64,000 nucleotides of DNA from Holosporales bacterium (GTDB lineage: Bacteria; Pseudomonadota; Alphaproteobacteria; RUG11792): NCBI GenBank assembly GCA_031269095.1, contig JAIRWI010000013.1:1-64000 (forward strand). The letters are read 5' to 3'. Positions 7,229 to 63,759 of this stretch are shown here, piece by piece. The position numbers were made by a program, and so were the translations under genes. The notes under the pieces were generated by a model. That model did no database searches. It saw only the letters and a list, made by a program, of their open reading frames with translations, and had not been told where the DNA came from. The number at the start of each line of letters is the position of its first letter. The first letter of the stretch is position 1.

Positions 7229-7481
7229 TATACTTTATTAACTCGACAACTAAGCTGATATAAAAATAAAAAACTCAATGATTTCAGGGGAAATGATTCC
7301 AAAAATTACTTAGTTATCGAATTAACCAAGTATACGTAATGAGTTATCGTTAATTCTCAAATGCATTTGATTTTTTATAACTGTCCCAGTTAACTTTGAC
7401 TCCGACCAATGTACCTAAAACATCAGTAATTCTTGGAATATGTTTGGAAAAATTATCTCATTGTTAATTAGAATGAGTATA
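7229..7481. repeat. Three abutting palindromic elements (D-C-A)
   Basis: A form-D copy occupies 7229-7334 (ends TATACTTTATTAACTCGACA and GAATTAACCAAGTATA). A short form-C unit follows at 7334-7379 (ACGTAATGAGTTATCGTTAA). A form-A copy lies at 7376-7481 (TATAACTGTCCCAGTTAAC to GAATGAGTATA). The units share their TATA ends, as expected if each inserted at a TA in the end of the previous one. The flanks, 7098-7228 and 7482-7793, are AT-rich and I see no gene in them. Confidence 0.8.
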
Positions 7482-7793
7482 TCTAGCTTTTTTATCTCAT
7501 CACTAGCCTTCTGTTTCCATTAGGTCTCTGGGGAAAATTCTCAACTCTATATCTTCATTTATAAATATTTTTATCAAAACTGTATTTAATCTTTTTTTTT
7601 TCGCTTATTTGGAATAAAAACTACAATGTCATTTTAGTTGTATTTAGAAACACTTCCGTTATTTTTCCTTAATTTATAATCATATTTGTAAACAGTCTGT
7701 TAACAGAATCTAATATACTAAATTAATTACCGAAAGAAGGTAGGAAGAAGTATAATATTAAAAACCTTTGTGAAGATATTTTATGTATTATTC

Positions 7794-19449: not shown

Positions 19450-19531
19450 CTTACCTACCGATACCCTATGAAAAAAGTATCTTTGTATTGTTGGTGTATT
19501 TATCCTAGTAGAACTCGCACCAGTTGGCAAT

Positions 19532-19875
19532 TATACTCGTTCTAGTTAACATTGATATCGACAAATGTACCTAAAACATCAATAGTTCTTGGGGGAGGTT
19601 TTAAAAAATTATCTTTTCGCTAACTGGAAAGAGCATAATTTCAGGAATTATGGCTTAAAAACTACCATATTGTTAACTGGCTCAGGTATACTTGTTCCAG
19701 TTAACATTAATATCGACAAATGTACCTAAAACATCAATAGTTCTTGGGATAGGTTTTGAAAAATTATCTCTTCACTTACTGGAAAGAGTATAAGTAATTT
19801 TTCTAACAGCATCCTCCTAGAATTACTAGGTTTGGGCATTTTTATTAATACTAACTTCAAGTAAATTAACTATAA
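19532..19875. repeat. Cluster of palindromic elements (A, partial, A, partial B)
   Basis: Form-A copies occupy 19532-19637 and 19686-19792, in the same orientation and about 90 percent alike by eye (shared run CGACAAATGTACCTAAAACA). A half-element lies between them, ending TTAACTGGCTCAGGTATA. A left-eroded form-B copy follows to about 19875. The bases 19450-19531 look like another worn B fragment. No gene is seen from 19243 to 19952. Confidence 0.8.
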
Positions 19876-25745: not shown

Positions 25746-25845
25746 ATTTTGTGGAAACACTATCTTTATGTACAAATGGTAACACAATCCAAATACTAAA
25801 ATCTACTTAACTTTATGAAAGGTTAACTCTTTTTTAACCTTTTAA

Positions 25846-26351
25846 TATAGCTGTCCCAGTTAACATTAACATCGGCAAATGTACCTAAAACATCAGTAAT
25901 TCTTGGGATAGGTTTTAAAAAATATTCTCTTTGCTAATTAACCTAAGCTTTGTGTAAGAAAGCAGGATTTTCATACTGTTGATACGAATAATTCTGTGAC
26001 TTTTGTGTTAAACATCTAACCTTTTGTATAGTGAACTATATAAGTGTAGCGGTTACGAAGGTCTTATAGGGGAAATCATCGAGTTCTTTATGTGATTGAA
26101 TAATGGTTTTTCGTTTCCTTACTCGAAACTTAGGTTAATTAGAGCGAGTATAGCTGTCCCAATTAACATTAATATCGACAAATGTACCTAAAACATCAGT
26201 AATTCTTGGGATAGGTTTTAAAAAATTAACCCATTACTAACTGGAGCGAGTATAAAGCCAATTAGCGACAGCTTAGCTTTTCTAATTGCATCTCCTAGAA
26301 TTACAGGAGTTTTTGTATTAGCTTGTTTAACAAATTAATCAATCATAATCG
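25846..26351. repeat. Cluster: A element split by an E element, then A and B
   Basis: A form-A copy runs 25846-25938 and resumes at 26138-26152 (AGAGCGAGTATA). Between them sits a reverse-oriented E copy (25939-26137, ends TAACCTAAGCTTTGTGTAAG and GAAACTTAGGTTA). A second complete A copy lies at 26149-26254, sharing its TATA with the first, and a worn B copy follows to about 26351. The cluster fills the gap between fabD and bamE; I see no gene in it. Confidence 0.85.
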
Positions 26352-44718: not shown

Positions 44719-44825
44719 TATACTCATCCTAGTCGGCAAGGGGGGACTTTTTAAAACTATGTTTTTTGGGATTACTGGAGTTTTTGGTATTTTTGTTAAT
44801 ACTAAAGTCAAGTAAATCAATTATA
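44719..44825. repeat. Form-B palindromic element upstream of rpsL and radA
   Basis: Starts TATACTCATCCTAGTCGGCA and ends AAGTAAATCAATTATA, with the B core TTGGGATTACTGGAGTTTTT. It lies between the divergent rpsL and radA genes, 65 bases outside the rpsL -35. The rest of the 418-base gap (44826-45000) is AT-rich apart from a possible 14-codon reading frame overlapping the radA start. Confidence 0.75.
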
Positions 44826-53291: not shown

Positions 53292-53504
53292 ATGAATTCT
53301 ATTTTTCGAAAAAAACCTCTAAGATTTAAAAAATCATCAGAATCAGCAGAAAATTTTAGCAATAAGTTAATTTTATTGCCACACTCCGTGAAACTACAAG
53401 ACTTTTTACATTTTTATTTATCAAAGTGCCTATATTATATACTCTCTCCAGTTAACAGAGAGATAATTTTTCAATGCATATCCCCAGAATTACTTACGTT
53501 TTAG
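53292..53504 (+). pseudogene. Possible gene fragment ending in a palindromic element
   Basis: An open frame begins a few bases after murG (MNSIFRKKPLRFKKSSE). Its first ~48 codons look like a basic N-terminus of something. From 53438 on the frame runs through a form-A element and stops inside it. This could be the stump of the next gene of an old mur/fts cluster, cut by element insertion, or chance. I do not recognise a family. Confidence 0.25.
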
Positions 53505-53544
53505 GTGTATTTGTCGACATCAAAGTTAAGTGGAACAACTATAT
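53438..53544. repeat. Form-A palindromic element (reverse)
   Basis: Starts TATACTCTCTCCAGTTAACA and ends TTAAGTGGAACAACTATA, with core TTTTAGGTGTATTTGTCGAC. Lies 156 bases after murG. Confidence 0.8.
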
Positions 53545-54901: not shown

Positions 54902-55088
54902 TTTTATCTCCAAAAAAAAAATATAACTCTATAAAACTAAAAGTATTTGATAATAAAAAACCGAATTTTCTAATAGGCTGTCACAAATTCAACCTATAAA
55001 AATAGTTTCTCATAAAAAAAATAAATTGTCAAAATTTGGAAATATTGTCCCGAACAGAACTTTTTTAAAATCTGGTGTTTCTTGTTAC

Positions 55089-55192
55089 ATACTCTCTCCA
55101 GTTAGCAAAGAGATAACTTTTCCAAATCTATCCCCAAGAATTACTAATGCTTTAGGTATATTTGTCGAGGTCAATGTTAACTGGAACAGTTA
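55089..55192. repeat. Form-A palindromic element (reverse)
   Basis: ATACTCTCTCCAGTTAGCAA to AACTGGAACAGTTAT, core TTTAGGTATATTTGTCGAGG. It sits between the portal start and the unknown secreted-protein gene. The flanking 54902-55088 is AT-rich without any gene I can see. Confidence 0.8.
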
Positions 55193-55203
55193 TGACACAT
55201 ACT

Positions 55204-58784: not shown

Positions 58785-59039
58785 ACTCATTCTAGTTAAC
58801 AACAAGGTAATCTTTTAAGCTATATTTCCTGGAGTTACAAGAGTTTTAGATACTTTTGTTGATATTAACATTAATTGGCATAACTATACATAGAGTTTAT
58901 CGTTAATTCTCTGGCGCATTTGACTTTTTATACTATACTTATTCCAGTTAACACTGATATCGACAAATATACCTAAAACATCAGTAATTCTTGGGATAGG
59001 TCTAGAAATATTATTTCTTTTCTAACTGGAGAGAGTATA
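58785..59039. repeat. Palindromic elements B, C and A in a row
   Basis: Form B at 58785-58888 (ACTCATTCTAGTTAACAACA ... GGCATAACTATA), form C at 58889-58933 (GAGTTTATCGTTAATTCTCT) and form A at 58934-59039 (TATACTTATTCCAGTTAACA ... TGGAGAGAGTATA). They fill half of the gap between the MFS and glmS genes; 59040-59219 holds the glmS upstream region and no gene. Confidence 0.8.
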
Positions 59040-59219
59040 ACATTAATTGTAAATAAAGAGTTTTGTATGGAAAAACAATTATGGAAAATGTAGTGATTGG
59101 AGAATATGGCAGAATTACATCCCCCCTTATTCTAAAAATAGGAATCTAAAAATATATAAACTTAGCCTGTATTTTCGATTAAAATGGTTTCGTATCCGTG
59201 TTATTGTAGAGAATTGCGA

Positions 59220-61207: not shown

Positions 61208-62029
61208 TTAAACAATATCTTGTTGTTCTTTCAAAAAACCACCATTTCTGATCGTTTTTATGTCGGTAGCAAGCCCAGTCGCGTTATCTATATCGAATAG
61301 TGCTCCACAAACGGTTGCGCCCCCCGATGCTGGAGACATTTTGGCAAACATATTAACTTTATCGACGAAGCGCTTAAATGGTCCCTCATCCTCCATACCA
61401 ATAACAGAATTATAATCCCCACACATTCCAGCATCTGTAAGAAGTGCGGTTCCCCCCTTCAAAATCATTGCATCAGCAGTCGGAACATGAGTATGGGTCC
61501 CAATAACCGCTGAAATTTTTCCATCAAACATACGGGCTAAGGCAACTTTTTCTGCCGTAATTTCTGCGTGTATATCAACAACAATTGCATCAATATTTTT
61601 CCCAAGTTTGTAAATCTGAAGTAAGTAAGCCATTGCAGCGAATGGATCATCATTCTGTTCCATAAAAACCCGCCCCATAAGATTCACAACCAGAACTTTT
61701 TTACCAAGATTAACTATTTCATGAACATAAAAACCATGTCCAGGGGTTCCTTTCGGATAGTTAAGAGGGCGGATTAAGCGCTTTTCTCTATCGAACATTT
61801 GCAGGTCATCTTTCTGATCGAAGCTATGATTTCCTAGGGTTATAACATCGATACCGGCCTCAAAAAGCATATCGCATATATTTTGGCGTATACCGAATCC
61901 GTGCGAAGCATTCTCTCCATTGGCGATAGCACAGTCTATCTGACATGGTCCTTTTCGTATTTTGATGTAACTAGCTAGAGCAGTTCTGCCAGCTTTTCCT
62001 ACAACATCCCCAAAAAACACAATTTTCAT
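61208..62029 (-). CDS. ymdB: YmdB-type metallophosphoesterase
   Basis: 273 residues from the ATG at 62029, six bases after GGAG; the in-frame TTG at 62041 overlaps that site. Metal-binding motifs are seen in KIVFFGDVVGKAGR, IANGENASHGFGI, ITLGNHSFDQ, VDIHAEITAEK and VIGTHTHVPTADAMIL. Bacterial relatives act on 2',3'-cyclic nucleotides and influence RNA turnover or biofilm state. Its 5' side holds two structured non-coding stretches. Confidence 0.94.
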   Translation of the reverse strand: MKIVFFGDVVGKAGRTALASYIKIRKGPCQIDCAIANGENASHGFGIRQNICDMLFEAGIDVITLGNHSFDQKDDLQMFDREKRLIRPLNYPKGTPGHGFYVHEIVNLGKKVLVVNLMGRVFMEQNDDPFAAMAYLLQIYKLGKNIDAIVVDIHAEITAEKVALARMFDGKISAVIGTHTHVPTADAMILKGGTALLTDAGMCGDYNSVIGMEDEGPFKRFVDKVNMFAKMSPASGGATVCGALFDIDNATGLATDIKTIRNGGFLKEQQDIV

Positions 62030-62118
62030 TTCATTCTCCAAGCTCTATAACATTGCAAAAACATATACCACTCTTTTCTTCAGCCAACACATTTTATATA
62101 TATTATACATACAAAACC

Positions 62119-62182
62119 GGAAGAAGCACTAGCGGCTCCCCCAAGCTAGGAAGCGACAACGGAGCTAGTACAAAGCTCTTCC
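62119..62182. other. Structured non-coding segment upstream of ymdB
   Basis: Outer arms GGAAGAAGC (62119-62127) and GCTCTTCC (62175-62182) pair with one bulge. Inner arms ACTAGC (62128-62133) and GCTAGT (62164-62169) pair perfectly around a loop with CTCCCCCAAGC. It is much richer in G+C than its surroundings. It could be a small RNA, a leader element of ymdB or a mobile repeat end; I cannot name a family. Confidence 0.45.
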
Positions 62183-62203
62183 AAAACTTTCTCCATAATA
62201 TTT

Positions 62204-62335
62204 TTCTTTTTTTTTTTGGACAATTTTAAAACAACCAATTGGTGTAGAAAGTTGTCAAGGTGGAGAGCGAAGCGGACCTTGACAACATTAACGGAACCAA
62301 TTGGTATACTTTTGTCTAAACAAAAAAAAAAGAAT
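62204..62335. repeat. Nested ~130 bp palindrome next to surA
   Basis: Symmetric around 62269: a T-run with TTGGACAA on the left and TTGTCTAAAC with an A-run on the right; ACCAATTGGT at both 62234-62243 and 62296-62305; and a perfect 11-base hairpin GTTGTCAAGGT / ACCTTGACAAC (62251-62261, 62276-62286) with a 14-base loop. It begins three bases after the surA stop (minus strand), so it may end surA transcription, but its length and order are more like a mobile palindromic element. Confidence 0.75.
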
Positions 62336-62337
62336 GC

Positions 62338-63759
62338 TTATTTTACCAAATGCTCCAGCTTTTTTTGATCGATTTTTATAAACGAAATATATTGAGCTTT
62401 TTTAAAATTTCTCGCAAAATCTTTTGCAGCTTTTTTAGATATCAGCATGTTTTTAAGTTCATTTTCATCTGGGATTTCAGCGTTTGGAATTTCTTTACTA
62501 ACTGTAAAATACACATCAACATAATTTTCTCCGTTCATAGAATGTGCGGTATTAGCTTTTCCCATAGAGGATTTTAGTATATTTGCAACAAACGGGGTCT
62601 CAGGCATTTCATCTTTTTCTTCGACGGTCACATTATCCTTTTTGCAAATCGCTTTAAATGAATCTGCATTTTTTGCTGTTTTTAGTTTTTCTATAGTTGC
62701 ATAAACTGCTTCAGAATCCGAGGATGTCATAATTCCCCCTTGATGCTGTATACTGCACTTTAGATATTTATATTTAGCTTCCGTTGATCCTTTTTTGTGT
62801 GGTTCTGCTTTATCTTCGAGGTATACAATTTTAAATCCAGTATTTGTATCAATAATTCCACTAAACTCCCCAGGTTTTAAGCTAAGAACCGCACTTTTTA
62901 TAGTTTTATCTAGATTTTTTTCTACGATTGGGCCAAGGTCTCCAGTTTGGAATCTATAATTCCCCTGTGATATTGCCTCTGCCATAACTTGAAAATTAAA
63001 CCCATTTTGGAGAAGTTCATAAACCGCCTCAGCATTTTGTCTAACTTTTTCCTTAGATTTTTTATTAGAAACTCTAAAGTATATTTCGTATACGTGGTAT
63101 CTAGTATAATTAAGGTTTTCCTTTTCCTGTTTTTTTATTTCTTCTACTTCTCTTTTGGTAATTCTTATACTATTTTTCATAGTTTCAACAATTGAGAAAA
63201 ACAACATCCGGGAAAATAAGTCCTTTTTAAAAATATCCATATTAATTCCTAGATGTTCGAACTTTTTCCCCAGTTCTTCAACGGAAATACCGTTTCTATC
63301 CGCTATATCCTGAATTCTTTTTTCAAGTTGTTTTTTGGAAATTTCCATATTATTTTTTTTGGAAACTTGCTCTTGGAGTTTAATATCTATTGCTTTTGCG
63401 AGAATACCATCCGCCATAAGTTTCAGATCGGAATTATTGAAAACCTTACCAGAAGAGAAGGCTATAAAGCGCGCCATATTTACAATATCAACGTTTGTAA
63501 TAATGTCGCTATTTACCGTAGCTATAACATAAAACTCCTGTGATCCATTAACTTTCGCCCCAATATATACGTTATCTATATCGTCTATACAATTTTTTTT
63601 GTTAGATTTTTTGATAGCACTTATTGCTTCCAAGGGTTTTTTATCATTATAAAATTTCGATTCGTTATCAACTTTTCCGATTTTTGCTACATCAAGCGAG
63701 TACGAAACGTCAAAGTTAGAAGCAATGAGTGTTAAAAGAAGTATTTTTAAAAAATTCAT
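62338..63759 (-). CDS. SurA-like periplasmic peptidyl-prolyl isomerase/chaperone
   Basis: 473 residues. A signal peptide (FLKILLLTLIASNFDVSYS) precedes a SurA N-like helical region (AKAIDIKLQEQVSKKNNMEI, then RIQDIADRNGISVEELGKKF). A parvulin domain follows (YHVYEIYFRVSNKKSKEKVR, FQVMAEAISQGNYRFQTGDL, LKPGEFSGIIDTNTGFKIVY), and a C-terminal helical tail. It escorts outer-membrane proteins to the Bam complex, so it fits with bamE at 26 kb. The long Asn/Lys-rich stretch before the first helix is an oddity. In many relatives lptD lies next to it, but not here. Confidence 0.88.
   Translation of the reverse strand: MNFLKILLLTLIASNFDVSYSLDVAKIGKVDNESKFYNDKKPLEAISAIKKSNKKNCIDDIDNVYIGAKVNGSQEFYVIATVNSDIITNVDIVNMARFIAFSSGKVFNNSDLKLMADGILAKAIDIKLQEQVSKKNNMEISKKQLEKRIQDIADRNGISVEELGKKFEHLGINMDIFKKDLFSRMLFFSIVETMKNSIRITKREVEEIKKQEKENLNYTRYHVYEIYFRVSNKKSKEKVRQNAEAVYELLQNGFNFQVMAEAISQGNYRFQTGDLGPIVEKNLDKTIKSAVLSLKPGEFSGIIDTNTGFKIVYLEDKAEPHKKGSTEAKYKYLKCSIQHQGGIMTSSDSEAVYATIEKLKTAKNADSFKAICKKDNVTVEEKDEMPETPFVANILKSSMGKANTAHSMNGENYVDVYFTVSKEIPNAEIPDENELKNMLISKKAAKDFARNFKKAQYISFIKIDQKKLEHLVK

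Follow-up and report, generated by a model that had tools for sequence, protein, structure and literature searches.

The nested palindrome beside surA in the window, i.e. the whole 64-kb stretch of DNA that was analysed, is with a probability of about 0.86 part of a copy of a ~220-bp non-autonomous mobile palindromic element inserted between surA and ymdB. The window belongs to the genome of a Holosporales relative of termite-gut MAGs, here designated G000. Copies are dispersed over genomes of the same family, their central stem covaries, the site without the element is found in relatives, and in-frame insertions occur in protein genes. The features of the locus are as follows:

62113..62334, + strand: whole repeat unit of 222 bp, 94% identical to G000:C2:9439-9657, with unrelated flanks
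62113..62203, + strand: left module with the inverted repeats GGAAGA..TCTTCC and ACTAGC..GCTAGT, followed by a pyrimidine-rich tract
62204..62335, + strand: nested palindrome, from symmetry, RNA folding and tile comparison
62207..62223, + strand: left arm of the outer helix, T-run and GGACAA, from sequence and folding
62234..62243, + strand: left arm of the middle helix, ACCAATTGGT, exact box and folding
62251..62286, + strand: inner core hairpin GTTGTCAAGGT-GGAGAGCGAAGCGG-ACCTTGACAAC, the signature of the family
62267..62273, + strand: GCGNAGC mini-hairpin with GNA triloop
62279..62310, + strand: promoter-like motif TTGACA-N20-TATACT
62296..62305, + strand: right arm of the middle helix, ACCAATTGGT, exact box and folding
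62312..62331, + strand: right arm of the outer helix, TTGTC and A-run, from sequence and folding
62338..63759, - strand: surA, the upstream member of the separated genes; 3-4 bp lie between its stop and the repeat
61208..62029, - strand: ymdB-like phosphoesterase gene with its ATG at 62029, overlapping or adjoining surA in relatives

The search of the window's own genome first returned a match at C2:9516-9657 with 94% identity. Extended into its flanks, this match covered window positions 62113-62334 (222 bp) and ended abruptly on both sides. Due to the fact that the 222-bp match includes positions 62113-62203, the left module belongs to the repeat unit; in the relative G017 the left module and the pyrimidine tract likewise precede the palindrome. 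The extent given in the preliminary description, 62204-62335, thus holds for the palindrome and is too narrow for the copied unit. The second copy starts 14 bp past the stop of a gene whose sequence reads as trmB, about 600 bp before a 16S rRNA gene. The single occurrence that the preliminary description had named as speaking against its view is therefore not the case, and the search for further copies that it had proposed yielded, besides this second copy, hundreds of related copies in relatives. The genome of the window contains two copies in total, neither of them with an open frame through the element.

The comparison of the surA-ymdB locus within the family revealed the empty site. The ymdB gene is present in 33 of 35 family genomes. 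Loci were read in 29 relatives, and 28 of these have surA directly upstream of it. The gap between them ranges from -4 to +44 bp in these 28 relatives (-4 bp in 17 of them), whereas it amounts to 308 bp in the window's genome, where both genes are intact and the repeat occupies 222 of the 308 bp. This difference shows an insertion in the lineage of the window, within a probable operon. A segment of 83 bp that separates the repeat from ymdB (62030-62112) lies outside the shared repeat and may contain a new start signal for ymdB or the remnant of a longer insertion. With respect to a target-site duplication in the window, the similarity between the end of surA and the start of ymdB was not significant; at the Mfd and YbeY junctions in G017 possible short repeats were seen by eye only.

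All pieces of the three concentric levels of symmetry described previously were located, including the inner stem, which consists of 11 perfect base pairs (62251-62261/62276-62286) closing the loop GGAGAGCGAAGCGG. The RNA folding that had been suggested as a check gave -45 kcal/mol for the palindrome region (z = -3.8), a value reached by 0 of 200 shuffles, and the palindrome was more stable than every one of 913 tiles of 140 nt from the window. The ACCAATTGGT boxes had also been regarded as a possible binding site of a dimeric protein, being palindromes themselves. In relatives the boxes are non-palindromic and only the complementarity from box to box is kept, e.g. ACCGATTTAT/ATAAATCGGT in G001, ATGAAG/CTTCAT in G018 and ACCAGATTG/CAATCGGT or CCAATTG/CAATTGG in G017, and a dimeric repressor box was rejected on these grounds. 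The outer arms read AATATTTATCTTTTGG/CCAAAAGATAAATATT in G001 and TTTCCTTTTTGGAAC/GTTCCTCCAAAAAGGAA in G017, and in G008 as well as in most G024 copies the right side folds into its own hairpin instead. As judged from these sequences, the two ACCAATTGGT boxes form the middle helix by mutual pairing and the tiers are helices rather than protein boxes; that each box in the window also looks like a palindrome by itself is coincidental.

A strong hairpin located directly past the surA stop could act as a transcription terminator or as a protector of the surA 3′ end, and in relatives the TATAAT side of the element is turned to gene 3′ ends more often than to gene starts (9:0 in G017, 12:5 in G008 and 31:23 in G024). 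However, the palindrome is not followed by a T-run on either strand, since on both strands a T-run precedes it and an A-run follows it, and it hence lacks the combination of GC-rich hairpin and subsequent T-run of an intrinsic terminator; the earlier impression that the structure is more than a terminator needs is borne out. The only terminator-like match, a weak one in the direction of surA, was found at 62142-62120 in the left module and thus outside the palindrome. Moreover, surA and ymdB are hardly separated in relatives, so that a conserved terminator has no place there, and copies occur in both orientations and some of them inside genes. A role as terminator or 3′ end protector is therefore considered very unlikely, and the locus is better read as the site of an inserted element.

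The distribution of the element was analysed with sequence patterns and a covariance model. An exact scan for the core TTGTCAAGGT-N14-ACCTTGACAA in 84,980 genomes, one per species, returned 27 stretches, 25 of which stem from two Holosporales MAGs; the other two, in Bacteroidota-type genomes, look like chance matches. When up to 3 mismatches were allowed in 144 relatives, multiple copies were present only in G000, G008, G017 and G024, and with a degenerate pattern about 91 copies were counted in G024. The covariance model R1, which describes the inner hairpin, was run on 35 genomes of the family and matched in 17 of them, with 102 copies in G024, 87 in G001, 77 in G008, 43 in G017, 38 in G018, 16 in G002, 14 in G029, 13 in G019, 2 in G000 and at most 5 in the remainder. 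Many copies in G018 are near-identical and lie at different loci. In G001 a different hairpin repeat (GCGGCGGCTTGTTCGGCTTCGCCGAACC...) adjoins several copies on their right (L308, L314 and L315). The search of viral contigs for surA, aimed at viral carriers, gave nothing useful.

The alignment of 18 copies from 6 genomes (A1) supports a hairpin with 12 + 2 pairs, in which 98% of the cells are paired and 6 pairs are altered on both sides. The covariation score was 0.348 compared to 0.101 for shuffles, and sliding of the pairing destroyed it (19-43% paired). The apical part of the core reads GGAGA-RC-GNA-GY-GR with any base at N; accordingly, the GCGNAGC mini-hairpin carries A, C, G or T at this position across copies, and some copies have A-T instead of its outer G-C pair. 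DNA mini-hairpins of the GCGAAGC type are known to be stable (PMC4686876). Covarying stems and conserved loops would also be expected of a structured non-coding RNA or a riboswitch-like element, which was nevertheless the least probable of the explanations considered. No Rfam family matched, and insertions within protein genes argue for selfish DNA. In those helices that are predicted on both strands, G-U as well as A-C pairs are rare without any strand preference, unlike in most structured RNAs, so that wobble pairs provide no signature of an RNA strand. The near absence of wobble pairs without strand bias is more compatible with selection or homogenisation acting on DNA than with RNA.

Besides the core, a motif resembling TTGACA-N20-TATAAT is retained in nearly all copies of each genus examined. 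Its spacing is 19-21 in nearly all copies examined (7 genomes) despite variable intervening bases, and it is often preceded by TG, as would be expected of a portable promoter reading rightwards out of the element. This explanation is nonetheless unlikely, if somewhat less so than a terminator, since gene starts are no commoner on the TATAAT side (28/80) than on the other side (12/35), the motif in the window points into the 3′ end of surA in antisense direction, and the N20 spacing exceeds the sigma-70 optimum by 3 bp. The elements lie mainly on the 3′ side of genes and are rather scarce ahead of gene starts, and they lack the orientation preference for starts that a promoter of the next gene would show. 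The bias to 3′ flanks and the avoidance of gene starts are as expected of tolerated insertion.

Insertion of the element into protein genes was observed in relatives. On contig C55 of G017 the ybeY gene has a stop-free frame of 311 codons, in which the Pfam match to YbeY is split at profile positions 66/67; this match is continuous in the other 28 genomes with YbeY. In the alignment the element reads SSVSERSEQAY...FPFWNEK...WSRWRAKRTLTK and is flanked by conserved blocks. An apparent second partial copy, comprising the right half, was seen by eye in frame to the right of this insert (L158). A similar insert of about 72 residues is present in Mfd on contig C20 of G017, within an open frame of 1093 codons, and the Mfd proteins of G000, G003, G008, G011 and G018 are without such an insert. 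A chimeric assembly is unlikely because both halves belong to the same gene in YbeY and in Mfd. Furthermore, the sole copy of G009 is contained in an open frame of 575 codons whose protein belongs to no known family. Of 18 copies in G017, 11 have a frame without stops over the entire 252 bp, compared to 4% of shuffles. The insert peptides matched no NCBIfam model and none in Pfam above threshold. No in-frame insertion in a conserved protein gene was seen in the genome of the window. Two G017 copies overlap open frames, one at the beginning of a BamE-like gene (L161) and one at the end of another frame (L043), both as possible terminal extensions.

The element was compared with three known classes of short repeats. 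The Rickettsia palindromic elements (RPEs) are palindromes of 100-150 bp in Rickettsia and Wolbachia that occur in intergenic positions and, in frame, within genes (PMC2229807, PMC3767692). The Holosporales element shares with these and the Wolbachia elements the nature of a short dispersed palindromic repeat, the intergenic and in-frame location in conserved protein genes (YbeY and Mfd in G017) and the long stem-loop fold. Copies are likewise numerous in relatives (38-102), while the window's genome has only 2. It differs in the order of its host (Holosporales) and in its length, which is 222 bp in G000 and about 250 bp in G017 with a palindromic part of about 130 bp, as well as in its two-module unit, its own GNA-loop core hairpin and the TTGACA-N20-TATAAT motif. 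No sequence relation was detected when the insert peptides were compared with NCBIfam, a library that may lack RPE models. REP/BIME sequences mobilised by RAYT resemble the element in their small imperfect hairpin, whose internal loop is strand-specific, their many intergenic copies and their frequency at gene 3′ ends. Unlike these, the element keeps no GTAG/CGTC tag beside the core, as inspected in alignment A1, is also found inside genes and is abundant in G001 and G018, which lack a Y1 transposase. MITEs such as Correia/NEMIS and ERIC agree in size (100-250 bp), inverted repeats, absence of transposase-coding capacity and an internal promoter-like motif; here, by contrast, the left module is situated beyond the outer inverted arms, a cognate transposase is not known and a target duplication was not demonstrated. 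The best reading is a new RPE-like family of non-autonomous mobile palindromes, which is not assigned to any named RPE family. The literature searched contained no report of palindromic elements in Holosporales, and a 2025 review of this group does not use the word 'palindromic' (PMC11909080).

With respect to its movement, the element probably spread through this Holosporales family and, in the lineage of the window, was inserted between surA and ymdB, separating two genes which share 4 bp in most relatives. The conserved part is a DNA hairpin with the stem TTGTCAAGG, the GGAGA internal loop and the tiny GNA-loop hairpin, beside which TTGACA-N20-TATAAT is located. This hairpin is the probable recognition target of a putative mobilising enzyme, which would be supplied from elsewhere to a non-autonomous element. 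As with RPEs, copies in some relatives frequently have one or more frames free of stops, so that the element can land in a protein gene without breaking it. The window copy most likely has no dedicated function, and any effect on the surA/ymdB transcript would be a side effect.

A Y1 (HUH) transposase was tested as mobilising enzyme because the hairpin resembles REP/IS200 ends, and it at first looked promising, being present in the first three copy-rich genomes checked. Mobilisation by Y1/RAYT failed family-wide: no Y1 remnants exist in G001 (87 copies), G018 (38 copies) and G000, and no core lies within a few kb of the Y1 remnants at the loci retrieved from G008, G017 and G024. In G004, a symbiont genome of 1.1 Mb with a single palindromic element, the Y1 transposase family gave 88 matches, the majority of them fragmentary. 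The search for a mobilising enzyme, which covered the Y1 family, found none. It is tentatively proposed that protein-coding palindromes arose or spread outside the Rickettsiales as well, and that the family might move as single-stranded DNA read via the GNA-loop mini-hairpin by a host or transposon enzyme, with TTGACA-N20-TATAAT as part of the recognition or as transcription start for movement.

Selfish palindromes in frame in conserved genes are described in the literature consulted for Rickettsia and Wolbachia only. The present family is a second, unrelated-looking one, which comprises hundreds of copies and series of subfamilies in several genera and shows covarying stems as well as a clear empty site. 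It makes the movement of such in-frame palindromes testable: from the conserved core the bases to be read by the mobilising machinery can be predicted, and the search for the enzyme involved can contrast genomes that have 0, 2 and 100 copies. In addition, YbeY and Mfd are new natural cases of enzymes with inserts of some 70 or more foreign residues.

The window contains further repeats. Another repeat of about 110 bp, weakly palindromic and 78-85% identical among about eight or more copies, was found at 2677-2784, 7229-7494, 19531-19638, 19686-19805, 25840-26255, 53433-53544, 55085-55193 and 58882-59040. Further repeat families are located near 44748, 46879, 47078, 47729 and 53590; together with the ~110-bp repeat they probably correspond to families A-E of the preliminary description.
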